This document shows positions 15,493 to 31,866 of a DNA stretch of 32,061 bases, in pieces. This DNA comes from a virus. Numbering within the stretch: position 1 is the first letter of the stretch; every line of letters begins with the position of its first letter. The position numbers and the translations under genes are program-made. A model generated the notes under the pieces. It was not told the DNA's origin, ran no database searches, and saw nothing but the letters and a program-made list of their open reading frames with translations. Location of the stretch: positions 1 to 32,061 of IMG/VR virus record IMGVR_UViG_3300047378_000262, one strand, 5' to 3'.

Positions 15493-15728
15493 ATTGGTAG
15501 CTTATTACCCTTTTTGCCTCTGATTAAATTAAGTCTCATTGCTTCAGCTTCCATTTTATCTTTAAGAGAATCTGTTAGTAACTTTTTCAAGTTAGTGTAA
15601 TCCATGCCTCTCTTTTCTATAATAAATGTAGCTGCGTCTATATAAGACATATTTCCCTTTGCCACTAGTTGTTCTACGGCTGTGGAAAACCGTTTCCTTG
15701 TCATAATTTTTTGTTCTAAATCAATCAT
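15489..15728 (-). CDS. 33: gp33-like late transcription co-activator
   Basis: 79 residues (T4 gp33 112). Helical with a basic N-terminus TRKRFSTAVEQLVAKGNMSY (10-29), then DAATFIIEKRGMDYTNLKKLL and a C-terminal LNLIRGKKGN...PI tail. Position between an unknown gene and gp59 reproduces T4 order 33-59-32. gp33 bridges RNA polymerase beta-flap and the gp45 sliding clamp at TATAAATA promoters, and several such promoters are visible in this window. The short length matches gp33 in marine T4-likes, as I recall. Confidence 0.72.
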   Translation of the reverse strand: MIDLEQKIMTRKRFSTAVEQLVAKGNMSYIDAATFIIEKRGMDYTNLKKLLTDSLKDKMEAEAMRLNLIRGKKGNKLPI

Positions 15729-16876
15729 AATACCCTAAGTAGTATGCAATCGGCATTGATTCTACCATTAGGAACACTTACTTTCGTCGTTAGCGTATCC
15801 CAGACTTGTTTGTCGATTTGCTTTATTGTTTTACTTAAGATCAATGGAAGTATATCGTCAGGCTTTCTTAAAGTAGTTACCCTACTCTCATCGCCGATAT
15901 TCTTTATGGTAGTACCACTTACCTCAAACCCTTTAGTTGAATTTGAGTTATACTGAGTTAATTTCCTCGTCTTAGTATTATACACAAATAGAACTTCTTT
16001 ACCAGGAATCATCACAGGATTTACCGACATTAGTTTTGCGTCGATATCTTCAACCTTATACTTAAGGTTTTTTACCTGTACATCAGAAGCTTTAGGCTTC
16101 TTAATCCTTGGAACTCTTGCTGCTTTATTAGCAACCTTTAATTTATCTAAATCTTCGAAGATGGTCTCCATAGTGGTTATCATCTTATTTTGATTAGTTC
16201 TTTTAATATGAGAGAATGCTTCTACAGCTTGATCACACGTTTTATCGTATGCATCTTTAACTGGTTGATACTCTTGTTCAACCATTGACTTAAACATATT
16301 AAGCGCTGAACCTTTTAGACCATATTGCTTAAATAACTTATAGGCATCAAAGTTTACTTTAAAATTTCCTTCTAACCATCCATCAACAACTGCATCCCAA
16401 TCATCCATAATAGTCTCAAGGATTTTTGCTTTTTGCCTTTGTTGTATTGTAACAACAGGTTTTGCAGCAGCTTTATCTTCGATCTCTTCAACAGTAATTA
16501 ACGCTAATTCGTACAGCTCTTTAAATTTTTCTTCTGCTGCTGCTAACTCTTCTTCATTATATTCGTAACCTCTATAATGAATCTTAGTCAACTTACCTAG
16601 GTAACCAAACTCATAGTCTTTTAATTTTTTAAAAGCTTTTATCTGATCTTTAGTGTATCCAAATTTCTCTTCTGCAAACTGTAATATTGTAGGTACATAG
16701 TCCTTGGTCTTATAAAAATAATTATACCAATGTGCTGCCTTCTGCCATTTAGTATGACGACCTTCAACACCTTCGGCAGTCTCGCCTGGTTGAAAGATTG
16801 GTTCAGGTCCCATATACTTATCGTCAATGGTTACTCTGTTCTTCCTCATACTTGTTCTTACTTTATTTTCCGCCAT
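15725..16876 (-). CDS. Conserved unknown protein upstream of gp33
   Basis: 383 residues, strongly basic and helical for the first ~260 residues (many K/E; for example EEELAAAEEKFKELYELALI, then KAKILETIMDDWDAVVDGWL), ending in a beta-rich domain of ~100 residues (VLFVYNTKTRKLTQYNSNST, then VSGTTIKNIGDESRVTTL). No membrane segment. I do not recognise the family; a gene of this size with a similar make-up occurs upstream of gp33/59/32 in marine T4-like phages. Because the -1 neighbour is a transcription factor and the next genes are replication proteins, a DNA- or replication-linked role is a reasonable guess only. It has its own promoter (16906-16934) and overlaps gp33 by four bases. Confidence 0.6.
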   Translation of the reverse strand: MAENKVRTSMRKNRVTIDDKYMGPEPIFQPGETAEGVEGRHTKWQKAAHWYNYFYKTKDYVPTILQFAEEKFGYTKDQIKAFKKLKDYEFGYLGKLTKIHYRGYEYNEEELAAAEEKFKELYELALITVEEIEDKAAAKPVVTIQQRQKAKILETIMDDWDAVVDGWLEGNFKVNFDAYKLFKQYGLKGSALNMFKSMVEQEYQPVKDAYDKTCDQAVEAFSHIKRTNQNKMITTMETIFEDLDKLKVANKAARVPRIKKPKASDVQVKNLKYKVEDIDAKLMSVNPVMIPGKEVLFVYNTKTRKLTQYNSNSTKGFEVSGTTIKNIGDESRVTTLRKPDDILPLILSKTIKQIDKQVWDTLTTKVSVPNGRINADCILLRVL

Positions 16877-19447: not shown

Positions 19448-19864
19448 TTATATGTAACACCTTTTATATAACTCTTCTTCACGTTTGTATGCTTCACGTT
19501 CCCATGGAGCATTATCATAGCTATAGTTACGTGGTTTCTTACCCTTCCATGACATACTATAACCACATAGTTCGCCACGTAAGTACTGTTTTGCATGAAC
19601 CATTTCATGAGCAAGAGTTTGCATTATCTCTTCATACGGAAGCTTTTCACCCTGAGATTTACGTGCTATAGACATATCAACGTAACCTTCTTTTGGATCT
19701 CCCCAGCATAATCCTTGACTATCATGATCAAGAGTAGTCTTAAAAGTAATAAAAATTACCTTAGAATACATACGGTTAATACCAAGCTCTTTACAGAGAA
19801 GATGTGCATACGCATGGACTTTCTTCTTGTCTTTGATCTGACCTTTGATTACTATTTGTGGCAT
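19448..19864 (-). CDS. Phage zinc metallopeptidase with HExxH motif
   Basis: 138 residues. The zinc motif is H86-E87-M-V-H90 in TLAHEMVHAKQYLRGELCGY, with a downstream glutamate candidate in PWEREAYKREEE (E122/E124), as expected for small gluzincin-type or SprT-like peptidases. The WKG segment and the closing ERE-AY pattern occur in phage and bacterial proteins of this shape. It has no signal peptide, so it acts in the cytoplasm. Target unknown; it may process phage or host proteins. Own promoter upstream at 19891-19919. Confidence 0.8.
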   Translation of the reverse strand: MPQIVIKGQIKDKKKVHAYAHLLCKELGINRMYSKVIFITFKTTLDHDSQGLCWGDPKEGYVDMSIARKSQGEKLPYEEIMQTLAHEMVHAKQYLRGELCGYSMSWKGKKPRNYSYDNAPWEREAYKREEELYKRCYI

Positions 19865-19959: not shown

Positions 19960-21804
19960 CTATAACTTTGGTGAATAAATGGTTATAAGCTCTTCTTTGC
20001 CCTTTACCTTGATTTTACCTATTTCCTTGCACTTATACTCATCCGGAAGCTGTTCTTGAGTATATGATGATATGATTGTTTTATAGTCTACATACTCATG
20101 TCGTGCGGCAGTTGCCTCGAGACGGGCTGCAAGGTTGACTGCATCTCCAATGACTGAGTAATCGAATCTGGATTCAGAGCCCATGTTACCAACAATGCAA
20201 TCCCCGGTGTTAACGCCAGTACCGACATTAATATCAGGAAGACCTCTTGATTTATATACCTCTTTAAGTTCATTAGTTTTAGCCTCTATTTCAATTGATG
20301 ATTTGACTGCCATTTCAGCATGGTTATCACAAGGCAATGGTGCATTCCAGAATGCCATGATACAGTCGCCCATGTATTTGTCTATGGTTCCACCGTTGTT
20401 TAATATGATTTTAGTCATAGCATCAAGGAATTCATTAACCAATTCTACTAATCCTTCTGGATCGTCATTGTTTTTATAGTGCTCTGATATTGGAGTAAAC
20501 CCACATATATCCATAAACAAGAAAGACATCTCTTTACGATCTCCTCCTAATCTTAACAACTCAGGATTCTTTTGTAGTAGATACACCTGCTTCGGATCTA
20601 AGTAAGTTTCAAATTGCTTTTTAATCTGTTGTCTTAACATGAATTGCTTATAGAAATTACTAAAGCTTGATGAAGCAAAGGTAATGATATATAATATCAT
20701 TGAGTAAGTCATATCAAGGAGAATCTGAGATTCGTACCAGAAGTAGAAAGAAGCGCCAACTGAAGATGCAACAGTCGCAAAGAAGATTATCATGGACCAA
20801 ACAATTGGAAGGTGGTATACAGCTAAGACGATTACCAGAGCACCAATTGACATTACCAGGATTTCAAGAAGGTCTGTCCACACAGGACGAGAGATTGAAA
20901 CTTCATCCATTATCGACTGAATGGCGGCAGCCTGAATCTGATGAGCAGGCATTAATCCAGCTGGAGTTGGAATTTGTGAAGCCAGACCTTTTGCAGTCAG
21001 ACCAATAAAAACAGCTTGGCCACCGAGATTTGGTAACTCACTGCCGTATTCTATCTCTGTAAATTTATAGTTAGGATTAATCCAAAAAGAACCATTCGCA
21101 TCTGAAGGTATTCTAAAAGGTCTTATTATAACTTCTTCAACACCTACCTCATTTACTTTTATCGTATAAGATAACCTATCTTGCATAACTCTTATTGTTT
21201 CTAATGCGAACGAAGGGTATAGTTTATCATCTATTTGAGACACAAGGGGAATTCTTCTTACTAATCCATCAACCTCTGGCATAGCATTAATTAAACCGTG
21301 TCCCCATGCTTCCTTCTCTAATTGAGGTATATTAGTAACAAGGCCGTCGTATTTAATTAACCAGTCTAATGGATCTCCAGAACCAAATGTAGCAGTACCA
21401 ACATAAGGTGCCGTTTTACTTCTACCATCCGGATCAGCGTCTTGAGCGAGTATAACACCATTTGAGTTTATCCACGAAGCAAATACTTCATCGCCAGCAA
21501 ACCTATCAGCTTCTGGAAACATAATAGTAAATCCTATCATTCCCGCATTTGCTTCTCGTAAGTCTGATAACATTTGAGCGTATTGATGTCTTGGGAAAGG
21601 ATATTGACCATACTTAGCAAGTGCTTCTTCGCCAATATTGAGTAAGACTACTCCATTACCAAAATCAGTTTCTGGAATAGTTCTTATATAACTGTCAAAA
21701 GTGTTAAGTCTTAATTGTTCTACTGGAGTTGGATCTGACACTCTTATACCGATAAGCAAAGAGGCTAATATGATTGTGGTCCATATTGATGTTAAGTATT
21801 TCAT
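19960..21804 (-). CDS. CHASE2-domain class III adenylate cyclase
   Basis: 614 residues. An N-terminal membrane helix (7-22) is followed by a periplasmic CHASE2 domain (about 30-305; VVLLNIGEEALAKYGQYPFP, FIMFPEADR-like motif at 93-101, DGLVRRIPLV), three more membrane helices (about 312-330, 334-357, 362-382), a linker helix and a C-terminal class III cyclase domain (425-614). Catalytic residues are complete: metal ligands D432 (MDICGFT) and D480 (DKYMGD), adenine-type K476, and N557/R561 in VIGDAVNLAARLE; S550 sits at the second base-recognition position. It should make cAMP in response to a periplasmic signal. Last gene of the late run, 79 bases after the curlin gene. A phage-encoded full-length sensor cyclase is highly unusual. 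Confidence 0.93.
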   Translation of the reverse strand: MKYLTSIWTTIILASLLIGIRVSDPTPVEQLRLNTFDSYIRTIPETDFGNGVVLLNIGEEALAKYGQYPFPRHQYAQMLSDLREANAGMIGFTIMFPEADRFAGDEVFASWINSNGVILAQDADPDGRSKTAPYVGTATFGSGDPLDWLIKYDGLVTNIPQLEKEAWGHGLINAMPEVDGLVRRIPLVSQIDDKLYPSFALETIRVMQDRLSYTIKVNEVGVEEVIIRPFRIPSDANGSFWINPNYKFTEIEYGSELPNLGGQAVFIGLTAKGLASQIPTPAGLMPAHQIQAAAIQSIMDEVSISRPVWTDLLEILVMSIGALVIVLAVYHLPIVWSMIIFFATVASSVGASFYFWYESQILLDMTYSMILYIITFASSSFSNFYKQFMLRQQIKKQFETYLDPKQVYLLQKNPELLRLGGDRKEMSFLFMDICGFTPISEHYKNNDDPEGLVELVNEFLDAMTKIILNNGGTIDKYMGDCIMAFWNAPLPCDNHAEMAVKSSIEIEAKTNELKEVYKSRGLPDINVGTGVNTGDCIVGNMGSESRFDYSVIGDAVNLAARLEATAARHEYVDYKTIISSYTQEQLPDEYKCKEIGKIKVKGKEELITIYSPKL

Positions 21805-21825
21805 ACGTATATATCTATAAATCTT

Positions 21826-21841
21826 CCCTTGAGTGCAAGGG
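21826..21841 (-). other. Perfect hairpin CCCTTG-N4-CAAGGG between curlin gene and cyclase
   Basis: Six-bp perfect stem (21826-21831 with 21836-21841) in the 79-base gap before the cyclase start. No T run follows on the minus strand, so it is not a clear terminator; it could pause, protect or process the transcript. The cyclase ATG follows some 20 bases later. Confidence 0.5.
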
Positions 21842-21883
21842 GGAATCCGTATTTCATTCGTATCTTTCTCCGTAAACTACTCA

Positions 21884-22654
21884 TCACTCTTGTGTTACTG
21901 ATACATTACATCCACCAAAAGTCATACAATCAATGCTTAGACTATATGTTTGGTTCATAGTACTCATTTGTTTTAAAATTAAATCTGTTCCGTATAAACC
22001 ATCAAGTGTTACGTTTGCGTTGTGTGTTGCACCGTTACCTTTTTGACGAATAAACACATCGTTCTCGTCATTATATATTGTTAAATCTGTGTTCTTACTA
22101 CCGTTGCTTTGTTGCTTTATTTGAACTTTATTATTATCGCCTGCTAAGTGTAAATCAAAGTCATGGCCATCCGATGCACCAGTTTGGTTTGTTTGTTGAA
22201 CTGCTAATTGATTATAGTCACCGTACATAGTAATATCTATTTCGTGACCACCACTTTCATAGTTATCCACCCACCAAGTTAAATCAGTATCAGAATCAAG
22301 TGTAGTCCATGCAGCACCTTGAGCAAGTTTCATCTGATTACCTGTTCCACTTAATTCATCAAAAGTGATTTCATTAGGAAGTCCGCCTGTTGTTGTATTG
22401 ATCTGGACCAAATACATATCTAGGCTTGATACTGTAATATATGAATTTCCATCTAGCATCTCAATAGTATTATTATAACCATATTGATCAACACCTAATT
22501 GAAGGTTATCGCCAGATTGTTCTAATGATATTACGTTATCATCAGCATTTGCAAATAGTGGTGCTACAAGTAGCGACAATACGATAATAGGCCAAAATAA
22601 AACACTTAACCATATTAAAGCTTTCATTGAATATTCTTCTAATTTATCTAACAT
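21884..22654 (-). CDS. Curlin-repeat (amyloid) secreted protein, paralogue 1
   Basis: 256 residues from ATG at 22654 (AGGTG eight bases before). The signal segment is ALIWLSVLFWPIIVLSLLVA with cleavage after FANA (about 36). Then a curlin repeat: NVISLEQSGDNLQLGVDQYG-type, followed by about four degenerate units of the form hydrophobic-x-hydrophobic...GD-N-x-(V/L)-x-(I/V)-x-Q (MYGDYNQLAVQQ, LAGDNNKVQIKQ, DENDVFIRQ). The pattern of Q/N at the strand ends is that of CsgA/CsgB. A C-x5-C pair (CMTFGGC) lies near the C-terminus. Likely exported by the Csg pore encoded two genes upstream and assembled as fibre on the cell surface. It shares the first repeat and C-x5-C with the gene at 23719. Confidence 0.8.
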   Translation of the reverse strand: MLDKLEEYSMKALIWLSVLFWPIIVLSLLVAPLFANADDNVISLEQSGDNLQLGVDQYGYNNTIEMLDGNSYITVSSLDMYLVQINTTTGGLPNEITFDELSGTGNQMKLAQGAAWTTLDSDTDLTWWVDNYESGGHEIDITMYGDYNQLAVQQTNQTGASDGHDFDLHLAGDNNKVQIKQQSNGSKNTDLTIYNDENDVFIRQKGNGATHNANVTLDGLYGTDLILKQMSTMNQTYSLSIDCMTFGGCNVSVTQE

Positions 22655-22655
22655 A

Positions 22656-23765
22656 TTAATTCACCTGATTTATATAGATAAGGATATCTTCACCCTCATT
22701 TCCTGTAATTATTCCGTCCCATGTTGGTGTAATTGTATCTACTGTAAAGTTGCCGCCTGCTCCAAATTTAAGTCTAATCACGCCATTAATGTTTCTATAT
22801 AATACTAAAGATCCATCTTGTAAAAACACATTAAACTGTGATTCATCATTAAATCCTCTTGCCGCACCTTTAATATTAAATTCACCTAATGTATCGAATA
22901 GATCTGAACTATCTATAATGTCCAATACATCAACTAAAAACTCTACATCTAGTTCATCAATATCTAATTCACTGAATTCGTCAAGAGTATCTTCTTCTAA
23001 TTCGTCTTCTTCTAACTCAGTAAACTCTAAAAAATCTATATCCAATAGGCCTTGATCTTCATTCGTATCATCAGCCATTTCTTCTTTTATCCTCTCCTTT
23101 ACTTCTTCAGGAGGTGATACAATAAACATGTTGTCAATTAATGATGGTGTAATACCGTTAACTTTAATTGATTGTGTTGGTGATGAATCTAATGAAGATA
23201 CCATTGTTGCGGCATAGGCTTCGTTTAATGTAACTACTCCACCTTCGTTAGAAACTACTATCTCGCCAGATGGATCACCATTTTCATCTGGTAGCAGAAT
23301 AATTAGGCTTCTACCTAACTCATCTACAGTTGTTGTAAAATCAGTTCCCCGTACGGCAATTGAGGCCGTAGGAGTCTTGATATCAATATTGGCTTTATTT
23401 ACTAATCCTAATCTTCCGGATGCAAATCTTGCCGTTCCCATTGTAAACTTCATACTCATTTTTGAGAGCGAAGGATCAGGGTCATAATATATTTCGTCTA
23501 TTAGTACTTCAGAATGCTCTTTTAAAGATAATTGAGCCTTATCTAAAAACTCAATAAGCATTCTTCCGTTACCAGTTTTTGCTTCATCATTTAATTCGAT
23601 AGGTATCTGATTAGATACTTTTATCTCTTCATTATTACGCACAATCTGGCTTACGCCAGTTGACTCTACTATGTCACCAATGGAATCAGCATAAGTGATT
23701 CCAGAGATGAATAGTAAGCTAAGAATCCCCAGCTGCGTCTTTTTGATTGATTTGTACAGTAGCAT
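22656..23765 (-). CDS. Secreted FecR-domain protein
   Basis: 369 residues. Signal peptide about 1-26 (GILSLLFISGITYADS). The FecR-type domain (about 35-150) has the motif KTPTASIAVRGTDFTTTVDE with a preceding GRMLIEFLDKAQLSLKE region. It is followed by an acidic stretch (about 225-290, E/D/L repeats such as FTELEEDELEEDTLDEFSEL) and a beta-rich C-terminus. Unlike the membrane anti-sigma FecR proteins it has no transmembrane helix after the signal, so a soluble periplasmic role, perhaps as a ligand for the CHASE2 domain of the cyclase, is likely; FecR and CHASE2 genes often neighbour each other in bacteria (recollection). The start overlaps the upstream curlin gene by 47 bases with no clear ribosome site. 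Confidence 0.82.
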   Translation of the reverse strand: MLLYKSIKKTQLGILSLLFISGITYADSIGDIVESTGVSQIVRNNEEIKVSNQIPIELNDEAKTGNGRMLIEFLDKAQLSLKEHSEVLIDEIYYDPDPSLSKMSMKFTMGTARFASGRLGLVNKANIDIKTPTASIAVRGTDFTTTVDELGRSLIILLPDENGDPSGEIVVSNEGGVVTLNEAYAATMVSSLDSSPTQSIKVNGITPSLIDNMFIVSPPEEVKERIKEEMADDTNEDQGLLDIDFLEFTELEEDELEEDTLDEFSELDIDELDVEFLVDVLDIIDSSDLFDTLGEFNIKGAARGFNDESQFNVFLQDGSLVLYRNINGVIRLKFGAGGNFTVDTITPTWDGIITGNEGEDILIYINQVN

Positions 23766-24459
23766 TGTCTGATGTAATATCTAGATTGATGATAGCATTA
23801 GGAGTTGCACAAGGTGAACCTCCTACACAAGTACCTGAAATCTGATTAATATCAATGTCACCACTATCTCCATTCCACTCTACAGTTAATGATTGAGAAC
23901 CATCGTTTTGTAATGTGTTAAAGTTATTGCTGTCACCAGTAATATCAAAGTTCCAAGTTACATCATCAGATTCGAAATCTAAATCAAATATATTTGAACT
24001 ACCTAACAGAATTAAATCTGCATCTAATCTTTCTGCACTTGCACCAACTTTACCTTGATCTATATCAAATGTGTTACTGTCTCCAGTAATAGCAAAATCA
24101 TAGTTAGAATCGTCTGAGCTTCCAGTATATCCAATGTTCCAATCAACTTCGTTAGAATCGCCTGTTAACGCAAAAGTTAAATCAGAGTTATTCATATCAA
24201 TTGGTCCATATATCAAGTTTTGATTTCCTATCATGTCGATATCAAAAGTCAAACCTGAACCCACAATTGTCATATCAGAACCTGAACTAGAAAAATCGTC
24301 TAAACCGATTTTGTTACCATATCCAACCTGATCAATATACAACGTTAATGTATCACCGCTTTGTTCTATCATAATTTCATTATCGTCAGTTGCTTGTGCG
24401 AAAACAGAATTTGCTGTAAATAGAAATAGCACTGTTGCTATACTAATTAATTTATTCAT
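23719..24459 (-). CDS. Curlin-repeat (amyloid) secreted protein, paralogue 2
   Basis: 246 residues. Signal peptide about 1-22 (LISIATVLFLFTANSVFA). The first mature unit NEIMIEQSGDTLTLYIDQVG matches paralogue 1. Then repeats of the form F-x-ITGDSN-x-(F/V)-D-(I/W) occur about six times (ALTGDSNEVDW, AITGDSNTFDID, LLGSSNIFDLD, DITGDSNNFNTL, WNGDSGDIDINQ, ITSDNATVQINQ). A C-x5-C pair (CVGGSPC) precedes the last repeat. Acidic and glycine/asparagine rich, without other domains. Overlaps csgG by eight bases, so it is translationally coupled to it. Most likely the cargo for CsgG export. Confidence 0.82.
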   Translation of the reverse strand: MNKLISIATVLFLFTANSVFAQATDDNEIMIEQSGDTLTLYIDQVGYGNKIGLDDFSSSGSDMTIVGSGLTFDIDMIGNQNLIYGPIDMNNSDLTFALTGDSNEVDWNIGYTGSSDDSNYDFAITGDSNTFDIDQGKVGASAERLDADLILLGSSNIFDLDFESDDVTWNFDITGDSNNFNTLQNDGSQSLTVEWNGDSGDIDINQISGTCVGGSPCATPNAIINLDITSDNATVQINQKDAAGDS

Positions 24460-25408
24460 TTATCGTTTCCTCTTTGTTTGCATGCCTTTCGTTTTTCCCA
24501 TCAACTTGATGAGGATGCCTATGGCCTGCGGTTAAATCCCAGAACTTACGGTCGTGGCCCTGGTAGATTAATTCCAGTACAGCAGCCTCAATAGCTGACC
24601 GTACTGCATACGTCACTGACTCATTATTTCCCACTCCGTCCTCATACTCGATAAGTTGCGTGCCTTGTTCATAGAACCTAAACACATCACCCGACGAGCC
24701 GTAAGAAAGTACCGATTTCTTAGCTTGGACGTTTAACAAAACTTCACCTGTCAATACAGACACTGCTCTCACAGATACTGTAACAACATCTTTACGATAC
24801 ATCCTACTAAAACCAACGCCGAGAGTTCTTGCACCTCGGCCTCCAGTTTCCATATTCGTATCATAACCTATAATACCACCCTCAATAATCATTCCTGCAA
24901 ATAAGAGTGGGCCAACACCATTTGGTTCTACACCATTAGCTTTAGCGACATCTTGACGAGTAGATCTTACTATTTGTCTTTCTCGTACAAGATTGTCTAT
25001 TCCTTGCCTTTCTACTACTCTAAACCAGGTTCCTCCACCTGCTGTTTTGAGAGCATCTATTAACATTTCAGTACCGCCTTGGGTAACTGCAGTAGAAAAC
25101 GATGCTATATTATCTACTGATTTTCTTTGACCTGTTAAATCTTTAAATCCATACACTGCAACTACTGGTTGAACCTTTGCTGCCGGCAAATTAAGAAGAT
25201 CTACAAACGCTGGAAGCTTTACAGCTTCTGGGGCATCAACACATATATACTTTCTGGCCATTGCCTTTTGTATGCCCATTTGTGCGTGTCTATTAAAGCC
25301 TTCATCATATTTGCCATTAAGATCATTACAATCCTGTGGGTTATCACTCCACTGTGGAACAGATGCGCATCCACTAAGCAGTAATAATACTAATAGATAC
25401 TTACCCAC
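24452..25408 (-). CDS. csgG: CsgG, curli outer-membrane secretion pore lipoprotein
   Basis: About 318 residues from GTG at 25408, with AGGA eight bases upstream; an alternative TTG at 25426 adds six residues and has weaker support. Lipobox LLLLSGC with acceptor C14. Matches to E. coli CsgG are clear: VERQGIDNLVRERQIVR, IEGGIIGYDTNMETGGRGAR, KSVLSYGSSGDVFRFYEQGT, and the C-terminal IYQGHDRKFWDL. The constriction segment is IASFSTAVT, keeping the Phe but replacing Tyr51 and Asn55 of E. coli by Asp and Ser (by my hand alignment). The mature N-terminus is about 45 residues longer, with two extra cysteines. It forms the nonameric outer-membrane channel for curlin. Overlaps csgF by eight bases. Confidence 0.93.
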   Translation of the reverse strand: MGKYLLVLLLLSGCASVPQWSDNPQDCNDLNGKYDEGFNRHAQMGIQKAMARKYICVDAPEAVKLPAFVDLLNLPAAKVQPVVAVYGFKDLTGQRKSVDNIASFSTAVTQGGTEMLIDALKTAGGGTWFRVVERQGIDNLVRERQIVRSTRQDVAKANGVEPNGVGPLLFAGMIIEGGIIGYDTNMETGGRGARTLGVGFSRMYRKDVVTVSVRAVSVLTGEVLLNVQAKKSVLSYGSSGDVFRFYEQGTQLIEYEDGVGNNESVTYAVRSAIEAAVLELIYQGHDRKFWDLTAGHRHPHQVDGKNERHANKEETINE

Positions 25409-25907
25409 CGTCTGAATCCTGGCCAAAGTTACCAGTTCCTACTGGTATCTCAATAACTGTAGTTGTTCCGTCGGAATCTACAATTGTCATTTTAATAAAC
25501 TCTGAACCATCTTCGTTTGTTATAACTTCATATGTTACTACATTACCTTCTAGTGTAAATGAACCGTATCGCACCGATCCATCGTTACTAAACATAGATT
25601 CGACAAGTTGTTTAGACATCTGAGCATATATTCTACTCTCTAAATTACGTATAAACTTGGCCATAGTTGTATTTGCTTCTTCTCTTTCAGCAGCTTTTCT
25701 TGCAGCTTCTAAAGCATCTACTATAGCCTTTTTTCTTGTATGTTCTATATTATCAATTGTTAAATAATGTGCTCCAGTTCCTACTCCACTAAATGATGGA
25801 TTTTTAAAGCCAAATTTAATTTCATCTGCTTGTACTACAAGGCTTTGTAAAGCCAATACAAATATTCCAGTTAATAATACGTCTTCAAGTTTTATCTTCA
25901 TCTTCAT
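25401..25907 (-). CDS. csgF: CsgF, curli secretion cap/nucleation accessory protein
   Basis: 168 residues. Signal peptide about 1-27 (LTGIFVLALQSLVVQA). The mature N-terminus FGFKNPSFSGVGTGAHYLTI is the CsgF signature (E. coli: FQFRNPNFGG...GAFLL), the segment that plugs into the CsgG beta-barrel neck. A charged coiled linker follows (KKAIVDALEAARKAAEREEA), then a beta C-terminal domain ending in glycine. In E. coli, CsgF couples the CsgG channel to the nucleator on the surface. Start at ATG 25907, overlapping the holin-like gene by 23 bases. Confidence 0.9.
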   Translation of the reverse strand: MKMKIKLEDVLLTGIFVLALQSLVVQADEIKFGFKNPSFSGVGTGAHYLTIDNIEHTRKKAIVDALEAARKAAEREEANTTMAKFIRNLESRIYAQMSKQLVESMFSNDGSVRYGSFTLEGNVVTYEVITNEDGSEFIKMTIVDSDGTTTVIEIPVGTGNFGQDSDGG

Positions 25908-26163
25908 TCTCTTTTATTTTCTTCTGCCTCTCTCTATATTCTAAAACAACCTTTACTTTTTCTTGCAGTCGTATCATATCTTGATCAAGCATTCTAATTT
26001 GATCAATTAGTCTTATAAGACCCATATGCATTTCTTCAAGTTTTGGATCTAGTTCTTCATTAATAAACTTCCATATGAAAAACACGAAATAAGCCATTCC
26101 TACAATGGCTACAGTCGTAAATCCGTACTGCTCGATTAAAACCGCGGGGTTTAAAGCATCCAT
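25885..26163 (-). CDS. Small membrane protein, holin-like (paralogue A)
   Basis: 92 residues. One membrane helix at about 12-32 (GFTTVAIVGMAYFVFFIWKF), then an amphipathic charged helix (LDPKLEEMHMGLIRLIDQIRM then DQDMIRLQEKVKVVLEY). The single-helix plus amphipathic-coil form resembles BhlA/UviB-like holins. It aligns without gaps with its neighbour at 26167. Location in a run with endolysin two genes upstream supports a lysis role, but I cannot prove holin function; it could be a spanin-like or sensor component. Confidence 0.6.
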   Translation of the reverse strand: MDALNPAVLIEQYGFTTVAIVGMAYFVFFIWKFINEELDPKLEEMHMGLIRLIDQIRMLDQDMIRLQEKVKVVLEYRERQKKIKENEDEDKT

Positions 26164-26166
26164 ATA

Positions 26167-26463
26167 TTAGTCTCTTCTAACGTCTATTTTGCCGTCTTCT
26201 ACAAAGTTTTCAGACCTAGCTATTCTATCTATAGGTGGGGTTAACTCCAACGCGCTAGAAACTAACATATCTATCTTTATTATTTCGTTATTCATTGTTC
26301 GGGCCCTATTTTCCAGGCCCTTGGTGAATATATTAAGAGTATCTATTTGATCTAAAACACCTGATAACATTTGCTTTATAATAGTGAATATAAAAAACCC
26401 AGACGCTAAAGCGCCTGCAATTGGTAATCCTACATCACTGATAAGACCAAATATATCTGGCAT
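26167..26463 (-). CDS. Small membrane protein, holin-like (paralogue B)
   Basis: 98 residues. Membrane helix at about 10-30 (VGLPIAGALASGFFIFTIIK), then an amphipathic part (LDQIDTLNIFTKGLENRART, NNEIIKIDMLVSSAL). Same layout and an ungapped alignment to paralogue A (G-x3-A/V-x3-G/A-x2-F/Y-F-I/V-F-x-I), pointing to a tandem duplication. Three bases separate the two. Overlaps the next gene upstream by one base (TAATG). Confidence 0.55.
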   Translation of the reverse strand: MPDIFGLISDVGLPIAGALASGFFIFTIIKQMLSGVLDQIDTLNIFTKGLENRARTMNNEIIKIDMLVSSALELTPPIDRIARSENFVEDGKIDVRRD

Positions 26464-26720: not shown

Positions 26721-26912
26721 TTATAAACTTACTAAATTAAGCTCATTTAATGTTTTATGCCAGTCTGAATATCTAAAAAGACCTTGCTTTTCATGACACC
26801 AATACCAACCTTTACTTTCCTGTTCCTCTTGTGGAATACTAGATTCGACCTTTAAAGGGCCTCTAATCTTCCCATAAGTCTTTCTGCTCTGTTCGTTACT
26901 TGCTTGTACCAT
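26721..26912 (-). CDS. Small protein overlapping endolysin end, unknown
   Basis: 63 residues, ATG at 26912 with AAGGGAG nine bases upstream. Overlaps the last 61 bases of the endolysin in another frame. Content: basic start (KTYGKIRGPLK) and an aromatic block KGWYWCHEKQGLFRYSDWHK. The clear ribosome site and the tryptophan-rich domain argue it is real. A spanin or cell-wall binding role is possible but unproven. Confidence 0.5.
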   Translation of the reverse strand: MVQASNEQSRKTYGKIRGPLKVESSIPQEEQESKGWYWCHEKQGLFRYSDWHKTLNELNLVSL

Positions 26913-27322
26913 CTTGAATCTCTCCCTTCAACAGCCGCTACCGGCCAATCACCACATTGCAGCGCTGCGTTGTGTTTTTTAAATTTACTTAAGCGCGTAA
27001 GTCCCATGTTGAACATCATGTTCGCAATGACTTGTTTCACTTCTTGTGGATATCCATCCCACCCGTCGTGTAATTTTTTACAATCCTCGATTACTGTTTC
27101 TACATCCTTGGCAAAACATTTAATGACTCTATCCTCTGCCACTGGAGTACCGACCTCCAACCCATGTTCTGGGTCTCCTTCAAGTACCAAGTGTCCAATG
27201 CCAAATGTAGCATAACCGAGGTGATCATGATAAATTTCATTTACTTGTCCCTCGTCTATAATTAATTGTTCTCTTAACTGATCTACATCAATCACCGTTT
27301 TTTCTTCTTTATTCCAAAACAT
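26852..27322 (-). CDS. Endolysin, T4 lysozyme-type (GH24)
   Basis: 156 residues. Catalytic set of T4 lysozyme is in register: E24 (IIDEGQVNEIYHD), D33 and T39 (YATFGIGHLV), matching T4 E11, D20 and T26 with the same spacing. Later conserved parts are ANMMFNMGLTRLSKFKKHN and DSRWYKQVTNRAERL. It cleaves the peptidoglycan glycan strand. No signal peptide, so it relies on a holin to reach the wall. It lies at the head of the lysis-like section between the fibre genes and csgF. Confidence 0.92.
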   Translation of the reverse strand: MFWNKEEKTVIDVDQLREQLIIDEGQVNEIYHDHLGYATFGIGHLVLEGDPEHGLEVGTPVAEDRVIKCFAKDVETVIEDCKKLHDGWDGYPQEVKQVIANMMFNMGLTRLSKFKKHNAALQCGDWPVAAVEGRDSRWYKQVTNRAERLMGRLEAL

Positions 27323-27662: not shown

Positions 27663-28442
27663 TTAGAAACAAGCGGTGGATGTAGCGACACCACGTGCAT
27701 ATAGTAAATAACTGCCTAAAACGCCATCAGCATATCCAGACTTTCTCGCTCTTGCAGTAATAAAGGTATAAGCATTTATAGTATTGCTGTTGTAACATTC
27801 AGCATTTGCATTTGCTTTAAATTGAAATCCTACTGATTGGTTATTACTTACATTCTGATACGTGTTATCCGCGGCAGCGTAAGTTGCTCCTGTTGGTGTA
27901 CTAGTTCCACTAGCAGCGGCCGATCCAAAAGTACCAGTTGTAGTAGGAGTAGTCCAATCTAATGCAATAGAAGTAACGCCTGTTACATTAAATCTTCCCA
28001 TCGTTACGTAAGTTGTACTTAAAGTTGTACCACTTCCAGATGTATTATAATAAGTTGAAGAGTTAACAGATGCTTGTTCTTTTATTTCTAAGTAAACATA
28101 AGGATCTGCTCTTCTCAATCTTACAAAAAATCCACCACCAGCGTTAAATACAATAGAGCCAGAAATCGACCTAGTTGAATAAGCAGCATATTGCGTGGTA
28201 CCACTAGAGGCTTGTCGCATATAGTTAGTAGTAGTCATTGTAGACAATGAAGATGCTCCATAGAAATCAGCAAAATCTATCTCTGTACCTAGTGTACTAT
28301 TAATAGTTCTACCAGATGCAGCCGTTAAATTTCTAATATCAGTATCATTTAACGAAGAGACTGATGAGGCCGCATAACCAGACCCTGAAGCCTCTACGTG
28401 AATATCTGCTAATGATATTGCTCCTGATGTTTGTAATGCCAT
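27663..28442 (-). CDS. Fibre-like virion protein, shared N-terminal tag
   Basis: 259 residues, S/T/G/A-rich and beta-rich, no signal peptide. N-terminus MALQTSGAISLADIHVEASG matches that of the next gene (MAL..S..ISL.DI..E). Further elements: SSLNDTDIRNLTAASGRTIN and DFADFYGASS, a segment I associate with marine phage tail fibre or neck proteins, then variable beta repeats and a final CF. Likely a fibre or adhesion protein that binds host receptors (inference). Confidence 0.6.
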   Translation of the reverse strand: MALQTSGAISLADIHVEASGSGYAASSVSSLNDTDIRNLTAASGRTINSTLGTEIDFADFYGASSLSTMTTTNYMRQASSGTTQYAAYSTRSISGSIVFNAGGGFFVRLRRADPYVYLEIKEQASVNSSTYYNTSGSGTTLSTTYVTMGRFNVTGVTSIALDWTTPTTTGTFGSAAASGTSTPTGATYAAADNTYQNVSNNQSVGFQFKANANAECYNSNTINAYTFITARARKSGYADGVLGSYLLYARGVATSTACF

Positions 28443-28452
28443 ATATTATCCC

Positions 28453-29322
28453 TTAGAATATTACCTGTGCTTGCGCGGTTAAGTCAGCTTTAACGTATAC
28501 GTAGTATGTTGGTGAGCTAGCTTTAGTAAATGTGAATTTAAATATTGGATCAGCTGATACATACGAGCTTTGTTGTGAGATCGGGTAACCGCCATAAGCA
28601 TCAGCAAAACATTCAATATCTACCCTTAAAGTTTGAGGGGTAAAAGAGCTACTTGTTTGAACTGGTATTGTTGCAGTACCGGTATGTGTCCACAGATCTG
28701 TTCCGCTGTTATAGGTCAATGTATTAAAACCAGCCTTAGTCACACGAATTTCTGCATTACTAGTACCACCAGTAATACTTCCATTTTGATCTATTTCAAC
28801 TGCACATTTATATCCGCTATCAATACCTATAATTTCAATTGAAGGGTTGGGTGGGAAATCAGATGCACCAGTACCTAAAATAACTTGAGTTCCGTCTGGT
28901 TCGTAATAGCGATCGTCTTCATCAATTGCGAACCTTGCGTTCGCGACTGGTATAGCATGAATTCCAATATTTCCTGAAAGATTATAATATATATGAAACC
29001 TAGCCATAGCTTCAGCATCAGCTTGGTCTCCTGCTCCCGTCTCTGTAGATTCTGCTTGTGAGAAAATACCTCTACTTGGATTGCCGGTTTCATTACCTCT
29101 AACTGTAAAATCAGCATAGACTGCCGACCAAGCATGAAACTCTGACATATTATATGGCTCAGTTCCATTCGGAGTTCCGGTAATATCTACTCCGGTATAA
29201 TCGTCTGTCCCATTTACTGATAATCCTTTAAGACTTACGTGGGTTCTTACAGTAGTAGATCCTTGTTTTTCATTAAGAATATCTTGTAACGATATCTGAT
29301 TTGGTGAACTTGGTAGTGCCAT
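28453..29322 (-). CDS. Fibre-like virion protein with similar N-terminal tag
   Basis: 289 residues, beta-rich. N-terminus MALPSSPNQISLQDILNEKQ shares the ISL-x-DI-x2-E pattern with the protein at 27663. Then PYNMSEFHAWS and a jelly-roll-like run (GDQADAEAMARFHIYYNLSG, GYKCAVEIDQNGSITGGTSN). The TAATG overlap with the upstream gene couples it to the 87-residue protein. Tail-fibre or baseplate decoration role inferred from composition and location. Confidence 0.6.
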   Translation of the reverse strand: MALPSSPNQISLQDILNEKQGSTTVRTHVSLKGLSVNGTDDYTGVDITGTPNGTEPYNMSEFHAWSAVYADFTVRGNETGNPSRGIFSQAESTETGAGDQADAEAMARFHIYYNLSGNIGIHAIPVANARFAIDEDDRYYEPDGTQVILGTGASDFPPNPSIEIIGIDSGYKCAVEIDQNGSITGGTSNAEIRVTKAGFNTLTYNSGTDLWTHTGTATIPVQTSSSFTPQTLRVDIECFADAYGGYPISQQSSYVSADPIFKFTFTKASSPTYYVYVKADLTAQAQVIF

Positions 29323-29585
29323 TACTTAATAATCTCCGTAATTAAATCTTCGAATTGTTCTATTTTCTCGACTCTATTCGGCCATAAAATATATTCCTTT
29401 TCAGGATTCTTTTTTAAATTTGTTAAAAGGGGAAGTATAGAGTTGTAAAGCTTATTTAGCTTATCCTCTAATTCTTGTGCGGTTGCTGAAGCAGTTGATG
29501 CCTCAGTCTTTACTGATTGTACGGCTTCAAGCTCGTTTTCATCAACGGCTGTAAAACCAAAATCGAAATCTAATAAATCACTCAT
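29322..29585 (-). CDS. Small conserved virion protein, first gene of late run
   Basis: 87 residues. N-terminus MSDLLDFDFGFTAVDENELE, then a helical coiled region (ASATAQELEDKLNKLYNSIL) and KNPEKEYILWPNRVEKIEQF. I recognise this 'LDFDFGF ... LYNxIxPLLxNLxKNPEKxYIxWPNR' shape from other marine myoviruses, where it is listed as a structural protein of unknown role. AGGAG five bases before the ATG and a TATAAATA promoter at 29604-29611 make it the head of a late operon. Confidence 0.72.
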   Translation of the reverse strand: MSDLLDFDFGFTAVDENELEAVQSVKTEASTASATAQELEDKLNKLYNSILPLLTNLKKNPEKEYILWPNRVEKIEQFEDLITEIIK

Positions 29586-29603: not shown

Positions 29604-29611
29604 TATTTATA
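29604..29611 (-). promoter_or_regulatory. Late promoter (TATAAATA) starting the fibre-lysis-curli operon
   Basis: Exact TATAAATA on the minus strand, 18 bases before the ATG at 29585, with a GGAG between. Every gene from there to 19960 is tightly packed on the same strand, with a single gap above 12 bases (79 before the cyclase). Confidence 0.78.
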
Positions 29612-30091: not shown

Positions 30092-30670
30092 TTATTCTCC
30101 AGTTATATAATTATATATATGCTTCCACTTCCAAAATCTTTCAATATCACCATCATAATATGCGTTATGTTCGTGAGCAACTAATATAGAGTTTAGTCCA
30201 AAGCTTTTACCAACTTCTGCATTTTCAGGTTTATCTTCAATCCAATAACAACCAGTTCCTTCGTACTTTTTAAGCTCTTCGTCTTTATCAGCACCGCAAG
30301 GTAGGAATATAAAGTCATCCCATATTTCCTTACCAAACAATAATTCTAAATTCTGAATTCTTAATTTTTGTGCATACCTATTCGTAGACAAAGATGTAAT
30401 ACAATGGAACTTATATCCATGAAGCATGTTTAGTCTTTTCATATAATAAACTGCATCTCTTAATGGTGGTAAGAATGCAATAGCAGCTGAATCATTAAAC
30501 TCAGCAACAAACTTTTTACCAGCTTCAGGAACTAGATTGAACCTTTTAGCAACATTATACTGTGAAGCATCATGTGTTGGAAAACCTTTATGGTTCATAT
30601 ATTGAGTGAATGAATATTCCCAATCACATAAAACTCCATCACAATCTACTAAAATTATGTTCTCTTTCAT
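30092..30670 (-). CDS. HAD-superfamily phosphatase, 5'-nucleotidase-like
   Basis: 192 residues from ATG at 30670 with GAGAG before it (the upstream TTG would give MRDN-). HAD motif I is D9-C-D11-G-V in ILVDCDGVLCDWEYSF; motif II is the SLST segment in CITSLSTNRYAQKL; the acidic motif IV is IEDKPENAE. Cap residues and WD segments resemble the 5'(3')-deoxyribonucleotidase group common in phages. It likely dephosphorylates nucleotides, supporting DNA synthesis pools (family-level inference). Confidence 0.82.
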   Translation of the reverse strand: MKENIILVDCDGVLCDWEYSFTQYMNHKGFPTHDASQYNVAKRFNLVPEAGKKFVAEFNDSAAIAFLPPLRDAVYYMKRLNMLHGYKFHCITSLSTNRYAQKLRIQNLELLFGKEIWDDFIFLPCGADKDEELKKYEGTGCYWIEDKPENAEVGKSFGLNSILVAHEHNAYYDGDIERFWKWKHIYNYITGE

Positions 30671-30678
30671 ATTATCTC

Positions 30679-30900
30679 TCAATGAAACACTCTTTCCTTT
30701 CCATCAATAACTAGCTTATCAATGTGAACATTACCTCTTAAATCCATAAACCCTTGGCTGATAATCAACTCACAAAGTTGATCCCAAGCGTTGTCGTCTT
30801 TAGAGACTGCCAAATCCACCATCTCTTGTTTATATAATGGCACTTCCACTAGTACGTTTTCGTTAACAACTAGTCTTCCTTTTATTACATTTTTACTCAT
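30679..30900 (-). CDS. Small early protein, unknown
   Basis: 73 residues from ATG at 30900, preceded by GAGG at six bases; the frame continues upstream to an ATG at 30915 that would lie before that ribosome site. Beta-rich and acidic: KNVIKGRLVVNENVLVEVPL, DDNAWDQLCELIISQGFMDL, GNVHIDKLVIDGKERVFH. First gene after the promoter at 30929-30957. Unknown. Confidence 0.58.
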   Translation of the reverse strand: MSKNVIKGRLVVNENVLVEVPLYKQEMVDLAVSKDDNAWDQLCELIISQGFMDLRGNVHIDKLVIDGKERVFH

Positions 30901-31182: not shown

Positions 31183-31866
31183 TTATCTCCCAAATAATTT
31201 TCTACGTTTATATTCTGCTATTGTATCTAATAGCTTTGTTGTCCAGTTATCACGGTGCTCAATAAATACTTGAGCTCCTTGATCACCTGCGATTAAGGTT
31301 ACCAATTGTGTAATAGGCATACCAGTTCTTTCTTCCCACATAATTGCATATGCAGTTTCTTGAGTAAAGTAACCTTCACAATACTCTTTCTTTTTAGGTT
31401 TTGCTGAGGTTTTATAATCTATAATAGATGGTTTACCATTCCATACACCAACACAATCGACTCGTCCAGCAACACCTAAATGTTCTGAATATAATGCTGC
31501 TTCTTGAGCATAAACCTTGGTAAGGTTTTTATCTAGTATGTCTTTTACTTCCATAAAGTTTGACTTAACAACAAGATTAGCATCCTGAAAATAGTCTTCT
31601 TCATTATCAACGTATCTTTCTAAGACTTCATGAACAGCTGTTCCACGAGTTGAAGCTCGATGAGAAACTCTATTGGCTTCTTCGTCTCCGACACGTGCTC
31701 TCCATCTTTGTATAGCTTCTTCGCTTAAGATTGAAAGTACTGTTGTAATAGAAGGATACTTAATACCATTAGGGGCGGCATATTTTCTGCCAGTATCAGT
31801 AGTGTTTGCCACCATGTCATCGTAGCCAAGATCAATTGATTCATGTTTAAAGTTTCCCATTTTCAT
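31183..31866 (-). CDS. RecB/PD-(D/E)XK family exonuclease
   Basis: 227 residues. N-terminal PNGIKYPSITTVLSI, then the GxxxHxxxE motif RGTAVHEVLERYV (H79, E83), then the PD-(D/E)xK core: D137 in GRVDCVGVWNGKPSIID and D150-Y-K152 (IIDYKTSAK). This is the RecB-type nuclease arrangement, as in the MGME1-like phage exonucleases. It would degrade or process DNA ends, probably for recycling host DNA or recombination. AAGGA upstream of the ATG at 31866; overlaps the PhoH-like stop by 20 bases. Confidence 0.85.
   Translation of the reverse strand: MKMGNFKHESIDLGYDDMVANTTDTGRKYAAPNGIKYPSITTVLSILSEEAIQRWRARVGDEEANRVSHRASTRGTAVHEVLERYVDNEEDYFQDANLVVKSNFMEVKDILDKNLTKVYAQEAALYSEHLGVAGRVDCVGVWNGKPSIIDYKTSAKPKKKEYCEGYFTQETAYAIMWEERTGMPITQLVTLIAGDQGAQVFIEHRDNWTTKLLDTIAEYKRRKLFGR

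Follow-up and report, generated by a model that had tools for sequence, protein, structure and literature searches.

Why would a phage carry a curli secretion system together with what looks like its own sensor? The question is raised by the IMG/VR virus record IMGVR_UViG_3300047378_000262, a linear viral record of 32,061 bases analysed over its full length (the window), in which six open reading frames (ORFs), all on the minus strand and inside positions 19960-25907, specify CsgF, CsgG, two curlin-like proteins, a FecR-domain protein and a membrane cyclase with a CHASE2 domain. There is no consensus on what the curli genes do in some of the most widespread marine phages. Our preferred answer, to which we assign a probability of roughly 45%, is that the cassette displays an adhesive polymer on the infected cell, with the FecR protein holding the polymer and the CHASE2-cyclase reading the FecR protein and making cyclic AMP (cAMP). 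Fibre display is moderately supported by the evidence presented below; the link to sensing and any advantage for the phage are inferences. The window itself is of a published kind; what is new here is the eight-gene unit, the bacterial operons of the same layout, a second type of exporter and the C-terminal strand of the FecR protein.

The eight-gene module and its published relatives

The initial annotation described six adjacent genes in a set order, overlapping or nearly so, and this description holds, as all six lie in 19960-25907 and the gaps between neighbours range from -47 to +79 nucleotides (nt). Read along the minus strand, the run begins with csgF (25401-25907; 168 amino acids [aa]; PF10614, 9.6e-14; phrog_35372, 7.4e-38) and csgG, which encodes an outer-membrane export channel (24452-25426; 324 aa; PF03783, 1.9e-51) with a lipoprotein-type signal by eye and a match to E. 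coli CsgG chains in the Protein Data Bank (PDB) at 5e-45. These are followed by the first curlin-like repeat protein (23719-24459; 246 aa), the secreted FecR-domain protein with its curlin-like C-terminal strand (22656-23765; 369 aa; PF04773, 4.1e-8; phrog_37870, 1.8e-65), the second curlin-like repeat protein (21884-22654; 256 aa) and the CHASE2 membrane adenylate/guanylate cyclase (19960-21804; 614 aa; PF05226, 4.3e-40; PF00211, 1.2e-19; phrog_35576, 6.1e-195). CsgF, CsgG, FecR and CHASE2 with the class III cyclase domain exceed their Pfam cut-offs, and the PHROGs families of four of the six proteins are without function. The unit is larger than that description, which overlooked two genes at 25885-26463: the module comprises eight genes, since csgF is preceded on the same strand by two small membrane proteins, twin 1 (25885-26163; 92 aa; phrog_18771, 5.7e-25) and twin 2 (26167-26463; 98 aa; phrog_18771, 2.6e-21), the latter with a D-x-R-x-D tail like that of its relatives.

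Conservation of the module was assessed in 343 viral loci, consisting of the window, pelagiphage HTVC008M, methylophage Melnitz and 340 loci from IMG/VR, with profiles that were built from the first three and run on all ORFs. The loci were picked by similarity to queries, with the best 80 matches kept per query, and were not deduplicated; many are pieces of the same contigs. A csgG gene is present in 205 of the 343 loci, and all 73 loci with at least 8.5 kilobases (kb) of sequence beyond csgG contain FecR, the cyclase and one or more curlins, with two curlins within 8.5 kb in 68 of the 73. The initial annotation had named a failure of these genes to co-occur in related phages as ground for abandoning its reading, and the opposite was found. 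The two small membrane genes (~95 aa) lie upstream of csgF-csgG in 175 of the 182 csgG loci with room for them, the exceptions being L299, L358, L362, L371, L373, L374 and L376. Single-linkage clustering on shared 60-mers gave 71 clusters, 45 of them with csgG; csgF adjoins csgG in all 45, each of the 19 testable csgG clusters has FecR, cyclase and curlin, and the twins are present in 42 of 44, where each cluster was represented by its locus richest in module genes, a choice that favours co-occurrence and hid L156 and L159, and which does not affect the unselected counts over the 343 loci. No second curlin is visible in L155, L158, L161 and L469, and in L473 the module is inverted relative to the twins. 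The evidence supports reading the locus as a curli-type export cassette that is conserved and includes a CHASE2-cyclase arm. The possibility that the run arose through assembly error or bacterial contamination was rejected, because isolate phage genomes carry the same run and csgG recurs across the viral loci. The curli module is also found on very large viral contigs (L428, 250,519 bases; L429, 216,820; L432, 339,794), where the cyclase is displaced by more than 3 kb or is not seen within reach.

A comparison of the window proteins with 50,697 phage records by tblastn matched CsgG, CsgF, FecR and the cyclase in HTVC008M (two records) and in four Melnitz records. When both genomes were opened, the gene order CsgF-CsgG-curlin-FecR-curlin-cyclase proved identical to that of the window, with the second curlin-like protein holding the same place in each. 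The set has also been described in print. The csgF-csgG pair was reported with unnamed neighbours in pelagimyophages (PMC7029224, 2020), the module of Melnitz was discussed in PMC9004378 (2022), and PMC9599517 (2022) described CsgF, CsgG, CsgA/B, FecR, a second CsgA/B and adenylate cyclase, without CsgE, in pelagi-podophages and pelagi-myophages, and reported viral curli proteins at 65 of 65 ocean stations, along with transcripts. The initial annotation was therefore mistaken in regarding the whole set as undescribed, since HTVC008M and Melnitz carry the run and these papers, above all PMC9599517, had published the set for pelagiphages. Nothing essential separates the window from the type VIII (curli) modules of HTVC008M, Melnitz, the pelagimyophages and the HTVC023P-type podophages, which have the same genes in the same order and two small genes ahead of them, and the window module is a new member of this published kind. 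A 1,499-base record labelled as a Salmonella phage (OR851715.1) also holds a csgG-like sequence that is without annotation and shares 41% identity with the window protein; the record is perhaps a bacterial fragment.

The published description differs from ours in one respect. According to PMC9599517, csgF is always preceded by a histidine kinase gene, and sometimes by two, whereas the preceding genes here encode membrane proteins of about 95 aa without a kinase domain. We take the twins to be the genes that were given that name. A histidine kinase identity for the twins was rejected, as no kinase family is among the 19 Pfam families matched at E<=1 by 18 twin proteins; the genes of PMC9599517 were not compared directly. 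Two genes of the module have been labelled "histidine kinase" and "iron regulator" in print, and these names may need revision. Relative to canonical curli (type VIII) secretion in E. coli, the phage module shares homologues of CsgG and CsgF and a curlin-like cargo, but has a FecR protein and a CHASE2-cyclase added, its curlin repeats have diverged, and no CsgE, CsgC or CsgD was found in it.

Bacterial operons and a second type of exporter

Bacterial operons of the same layout offer a handle on the origin of the cassette. When 84,980 bacterial and archaeal genomes were scanned with ten phage cyclases and the best 80 loci were kept, CsgG was found in one of them, L164, a contig of a metagenome-assembled genome from the Caulobacteraceae. 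There csgF-csgG-curlin-curlin-FecR-cyclase occupies L164:5992-12049; glycosyltransferases, a peptidase and a TonB receptor are encoded on the same contig. A FecR profile identified a further operon, csgF-csgG-curlin-FecR-cyclase at L282:7476-13499, on a 705,567-base contig of a genome of the same order (G395), whose flanks read like TonB receptors (by profile and by eye, with Pfam applied only to CsgG). Both operons are outside any evident prophage. They have the genes and order of the phage module, but no twins were found beside them, their cyclases are longer (688 and 691 aa) and their flanks are bacterial. In PMC9599517, FecR and the cyclase are stated not to be within bacterial curli operons, a statement that these two operons qualify.

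Bacterial operons of this layout look rare. A FecR match better than 1e-60 was obtained in 2 of 398 genomes of the order, in 1 of 385 genomes of the class (L164's genome again) and in 1 of 105 genomes of the family of L282's genome. CsgF exceeded the cut-off in six of the 385 class genomes, and the five besides L164's have csgG and curlin-like genes nearby, with no match to the FecR or cyclase profiles within ~9 kb. In a CsgG tree, L164 and L282 fall into one group (100/99) with 17 sequences from phages, separate from five further CsgG proteins of Alphaproteobacteria. In a cyclase tree, they share a group (100/97) with 26 sequences from phages, to which 25 other bacterial CHASE2-cyclases do not belong. 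Long branches are carried by L155, L161 and L163 in the CsgG tree and by L043, L003, L165 and L283 in the cyclase tree. In both trees the two Caulobacterales sequences form an unresolved fork with the phages, and an all-phage cyclase clade appears in only 38% of bootstrap trees; the trees support neither direction of transfer between phage and bacterium.

The next closest cyclase lies on L165, a contig that was binned as Rickettsiales, but part of this cyclase (residues 245-643) is matched at 100% by a viral contig, L326. Its surroundings contain a cadherin protein, a TolC-type protein, a short ABC (ATP-binding cassette)-transporter-like membrane protein and an HlyD-type protein, followed by the cyclase and the twins. 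The TolC-type and HlyD-type proteins match their Pfam families in both L165 and L343 (OEP, 5.2e-46 and 6e-49; HlyD_3, 1.7e-17 and 1.2e-17, respectively). The short membrane protein resembles an ABC transporter (phrog_2392, 1.9e-9) without an ATPase, and no ABC ATPase is beside the exporter, a PF00005 match over the cut-off lying ~14 kb away in the L343 contig and none occurring in the L341 contig. The giant cargo protein has an N-terminal FecR domain over the Pfam cut-off in three of the three proteins scanned, together with cadherin domains and, in one, RTX repeats, and the phage FecR profile matches all 14 giant proteins longer than 900 aa (7 distinct sequences or groups). This type I-like FecR-cadherin cassette was found in L165 (3-8256), L341 (2513-12515), L343 (1578-12470), L303, L315, L325, L338 and others. 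It resembles the curli module in having a CHASE2-cyclase of the same clade, a FecR domain on the exported protein and, usually, the twins, and differs in having TolC-type, HlyD-type and short ABC-like proteins in place of CsgG and CsgF, and giant cadherin cargo in place of curlins.

A scan with the L165 cyclase returned 302 relatives, and many of the best 80 viral loci show the type I-like set, others ending just before it. Curli-module genes occur in L299, L358, L362, L364, L366, L369, L371-L374 and L376, and in L299 and L362 they stand beside a cyclase of the type I-type. The twins usually accompany the cyclase with either exporter, and are missing in L299, L317-L322, L358, L362, L373, L374, L376 and L378. 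Among 183 cyclase loci with at least 2.4 kb upstream, 155 have the curli exporter, 26 the type I-like exporter and two (L156 and L159) neither. When the HlyD homologue served as the query, 27 loci were obtained, of which the 24 new ones all have the cyclase, although they added only four new contigs (L378, L379, L385 and L393). Two hybrid loci, L299:1-10536 and L362, have type I-like genes and a CHASE2-cyclase followed by an inverted curli set with FecR and a second, shorter CHASE2-cyclase (548 aa).

The L341 contig (G792) carries a phage DNA polymerase, ribonucleotide reductase, ligase and baseplate-tail-fibre connector, and a few genes that resemble those of the window, and for these reasons we interpret it as a large tailed phage from a different lineage. 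A match to the baseplate-tail-fibre connector is present in the L343 contig too, and the T4 major capsid and Terminase_6N families are absent from both of these long contigs. A literature search that covered few subscription papers and no preprints showed no printed account of the type I-like cassette among the results listed, and the main texts of PMC7029224 and PMC9599517 mention neither TolC, HlyD or cadherin nor "type I secretion".

What the cassette may do

The FecR protein may be the element that ties the two exporters together. An AlphaFold2 model of the window protein, of middling confidence (predicted local distance difference test [pLDDT] 72; predicted template modelling score [pTM] 0.47), has a signal-like helix, directly followed by the FecR region, then a low-confidence stretch (233-292) and a C-terminal beta-domain. 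Residues 57-212 of the model match the signalling domain of PupR (6ovk, Z 15.2). Residues 26-120 match 5ix9, a "cell surface anchoring domain" listed as an antifreeze protein, at Z 7.0 and a root-mean-square deviation (rmsd) of 2.5 over 73 residues, a modest level that the fold-comparison tool calls common; Foldseek aligned the two with E 1.9e-3 and an rmsd of 1.1. We take 5ix9 to be the retention region of a giant ice adhesin that Marinomonas secretes by a type I system. The protein ends in a curlin-like strand, defined as hydrophobic, x, hydrophobic, x, Gln and then at most four residues. This pattern, which was composed after four FecR proteins had been inspected and counts T and Y as hydrophobic, ends 124 of 124 distinct phage FecR sequences, many of them close relatives, and is found in 0 of 142 CsgG proteins, 1 of 143 CsgF proteins, 2 of 181 cyclases and 19 of 2191 other mechanically called ORFs. 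It also ends the second curlin in 127 of 133 cases. By eye, the FecR protein of L164 ends in such a strand and that of L282 does not. The FecR domain thus appears to ride on the exported polymer with both exporters, since it has a curlin-like tail in one and forms the head of an adhesin-like protein in the other. FecR anti-sigma regulators have the FecR/cell-surface signalling domain in common with the phage protein, but the latter lacks a cytoplasmic anti-sigma domain in Pfam (E<=0.1), and a role as an iron regulator was rejected as the main reading on this ground and on that of the curlin-like end. Alphaproteobacterial FecR domains of this type often lie in very long open frames (L253-L281, up to 6,913 aa), perhaps of large surface proteins.

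The first curlin is predicted to be a beta-solenoid (pLDDT 80), and its profile has two PDB matches at E<=1, both of them curlins (8c50, 0.005; 8enq, the "major curlin subunit", 0.0073). Foldseek gave no PDB match for the model at E<=0.001, and a further fold comparison found beta-solenoids such as SufB/SufD with Z up to 16.5, which indicates a fold class and not kinship. The cyclase of the window has the residues D432, K476, D480, N557 and R561, which presumably serve as metal, base and transition-state residues. Of 194 cyclases examined (192 from phages, 2 from bacteria), 188 have all of these residues intact; the others are five of the Melnitz type, with Ser for the transition-state Asn, and one that is cut by a contig end. 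The Melnitz-type cyclases (L003:13529-15580, L080, L082, L420 and L460) have Asp at the base position as well as Ser at the usual transition-state Asn, and their activity may differ because of these changes.

Pairing of FecR with CHASE2 is not peculiar to phages. The 78 bacterial loci other than L164 and L165 contain 24 FecR ORFs, of which 12, at 12 loci, are no more than 500 nt from the cyclase, compared with 4.1 ORFs expected from random placement, which is a crude control. A Burkholderia biofilm operon (BiofilmReg) likewise has a periplasmic FecR protein beside a CHASE2 membrane sensor (PMC5192318), but there the FecR protein carries LysM, the output is a histidine kinase with a response regulator, and there is no exporter. 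CHASE2-cyclases of S. meliloti are reported to sense through an outer-membrane protein (PMC13001267).

These observations suggest the following course of events. Judging from their families, CsgG and CsgF would form an outer-membrane channel that exports the two curlin-repeat proteins, which would then build an adhesive fibre on the surface of the infected cell. Sequence and fold suggest that the N-terminal part of the FecR protein stays in the envelope as an anchor as its C-terminal strand joins the fibre. The pairing of the genes suggests that the periplasmic CHASE2 domain reads the FecR protein and that the cyclase converts the signal to cAMP. The gain for the phage may be changed attachment, either through aggregation of cells and virions or through blocking of rival phages, two outcomes that are not told apart here. 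Among the roles offered by the initial annotation, the best fit is an adhesive coat, given that in another group of phages the same kind of cyclase stands beside a different exporter and a FecR-cadherin cargo; a late breach of the outer membrane fits less well. The swap of exporters is the main argument for surface display over a pore alone or an uptake channel, and the presence in a second phage group of the sensor, usually the twins, another exporter and an adhesin-like cargo makes surface display, as the shared purpose, a testable proposition. More tentatively, the two sets may be versions of a modular "export and report" cassette of marine phages, composed of an exported protein with a FecR domain, a CHASE2-cyclase and usually the twins, into which a curli or type I-like exporter is plugged, with FecR as the common anchor and cAMP reporting the success of display. 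If so, these phages build an adhesive coat on the infected cell and monitor it.

Several observations weigh against display of a sensed fibre. Melnitz cultures were without clumping (PMC9004378), the chief argument against aggregation. Both curlin repeats are below the Pfam cut-off (PF07012, 9.9e-4 for the first, which is just below it, and 0.014 for the second), and PDB curlin structures are absent among the fold matches listed for the curlin model. Only 17 of 139 first curlins conform to the strand pattern, because their tail is longer, and to this are added the composition of the pattern after inspection, the middling confidence of the FecR model and the modest match to 5ix9. A Pfam scan of proteins from the module and its flanks showed no CsgE (the record is a fragment, and no search was aimed at the CsgE family), and CsgC and CsgD were likewise not found in the module. 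The cyclase is missing from the 3.4 kb past the second curlin in L429 and L432, and in the near-identical contigs L156 (343-4403) and L159 a CHASE2-cyclase has no exporter within 2.4 kb upstream and its neighbours are unrelated. Finally, the cyclic-nucleotide-binding domain PF00027 was found in neither of two isolate phage genomes, HTVC008M and Melnitz, whose hosts were outside the search (control, 11 of 14 genomes), and literature listings on cAMP receptors of SAR11 yielded nothing of use.

An alternative is that the system times lysis, with CsgG-CsgF acting as a repurposed gated pore (a pinholin or secretin) that opens the envelope in partnership with holin-like twins and a nearby lysozyme. 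A pore role was proposed for the Melnitz module (PMC9004378), a lysozyme-domain gene lies just upstream, and half of the 18 twins tested match the "holin" family phrog_4898 (9/18 at E<=0.1, best 1.1e-5), a weak likeness; all 18 match phrog_18771, of unassigned function, better or equally broadly. We nevertheless regard this explanation as unlikely, as it accounts neither for the curlins, the FecR protein and the cyclase, nor for the type I-like exporter and cadherin cargo beside the same cyclase in other phages, and the twins are missing in several loci. An uptake function is more doubtful still. PMC7029224 and PMC9599517 suggested that an open CsgG channel might admit larger nutrients or cofactors to the periplasm, the other genes then being passengers or regulators such as a FecR iron sensor, and the failure to find a CsgE gate in the module agrees with this. 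However, passengers would hardly accompany csgG at every locus with room for them, the FecR protein has no anti-sigma domain in Pfam, and the type I-like set is not an uptake channel, so that we give this idea very little weight.

It is also conceivable, if improbable, that signalling comes first, and that cAMP is the main product, redirecting host metabolism or late phage genes, with the exporter only supplying a periplasmic signal. The persistence of the cyclase with two types of exporter, and with neither at two loci, speaks for this idea, and so do the catalytic residues, intact in nearly all cyclases. On the other hand, many of the loci came from searches with the cyclase, which favour loci that bear it, and the lack of a PF00027 receptor domain in the two isolate phage genomes counts against this idea as it does against the cAMP-based control of host metabolism that the initial annotation had listed. 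Display of an adhesive polymer that is held by FecR and read by the cyclase remains our preferred reading.

Surroundings of the module

The initial annotation placed the module behind fibre and endolysin genes and a late promoter. The lysozyme-domain gene upstream of the module is real (26852-27322; PF00959, 4.6e-6), and its best PHROG is a baseplate-hub tail lysozyme, but the supposed fibre genes (27663-29322) belong to no named family. The motif TATAAATA, the late-promoter motif of T4, occurs at 29604-29611 on the minus strand, 19 nt upstream of the gene at 29585, where it is a possible T4-type late promoter for the series of genes leading up to the module. The motif is present six times in the window, compared with 5.5 expected by chance, a difference that is not significant, and an argument for the promoter from the motif count was rejected on these numbers. 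Five of the six sites, that at 29604 among them, lie within 49 nt upstream of the start of a same-strand gene in a gene list compiled by the authors, so that the promoter is plausible but unproven. Expression of the module late in infection is likely.

Four genes of the window near the module (15725-16876, 19448-19864, 30092-30682 and 31183-31866) find relatives by tblastn (1e-10 to 5e-42) in G792, the type I-like phage record, so that what the two phage groups have in common extends beyond the cassette.

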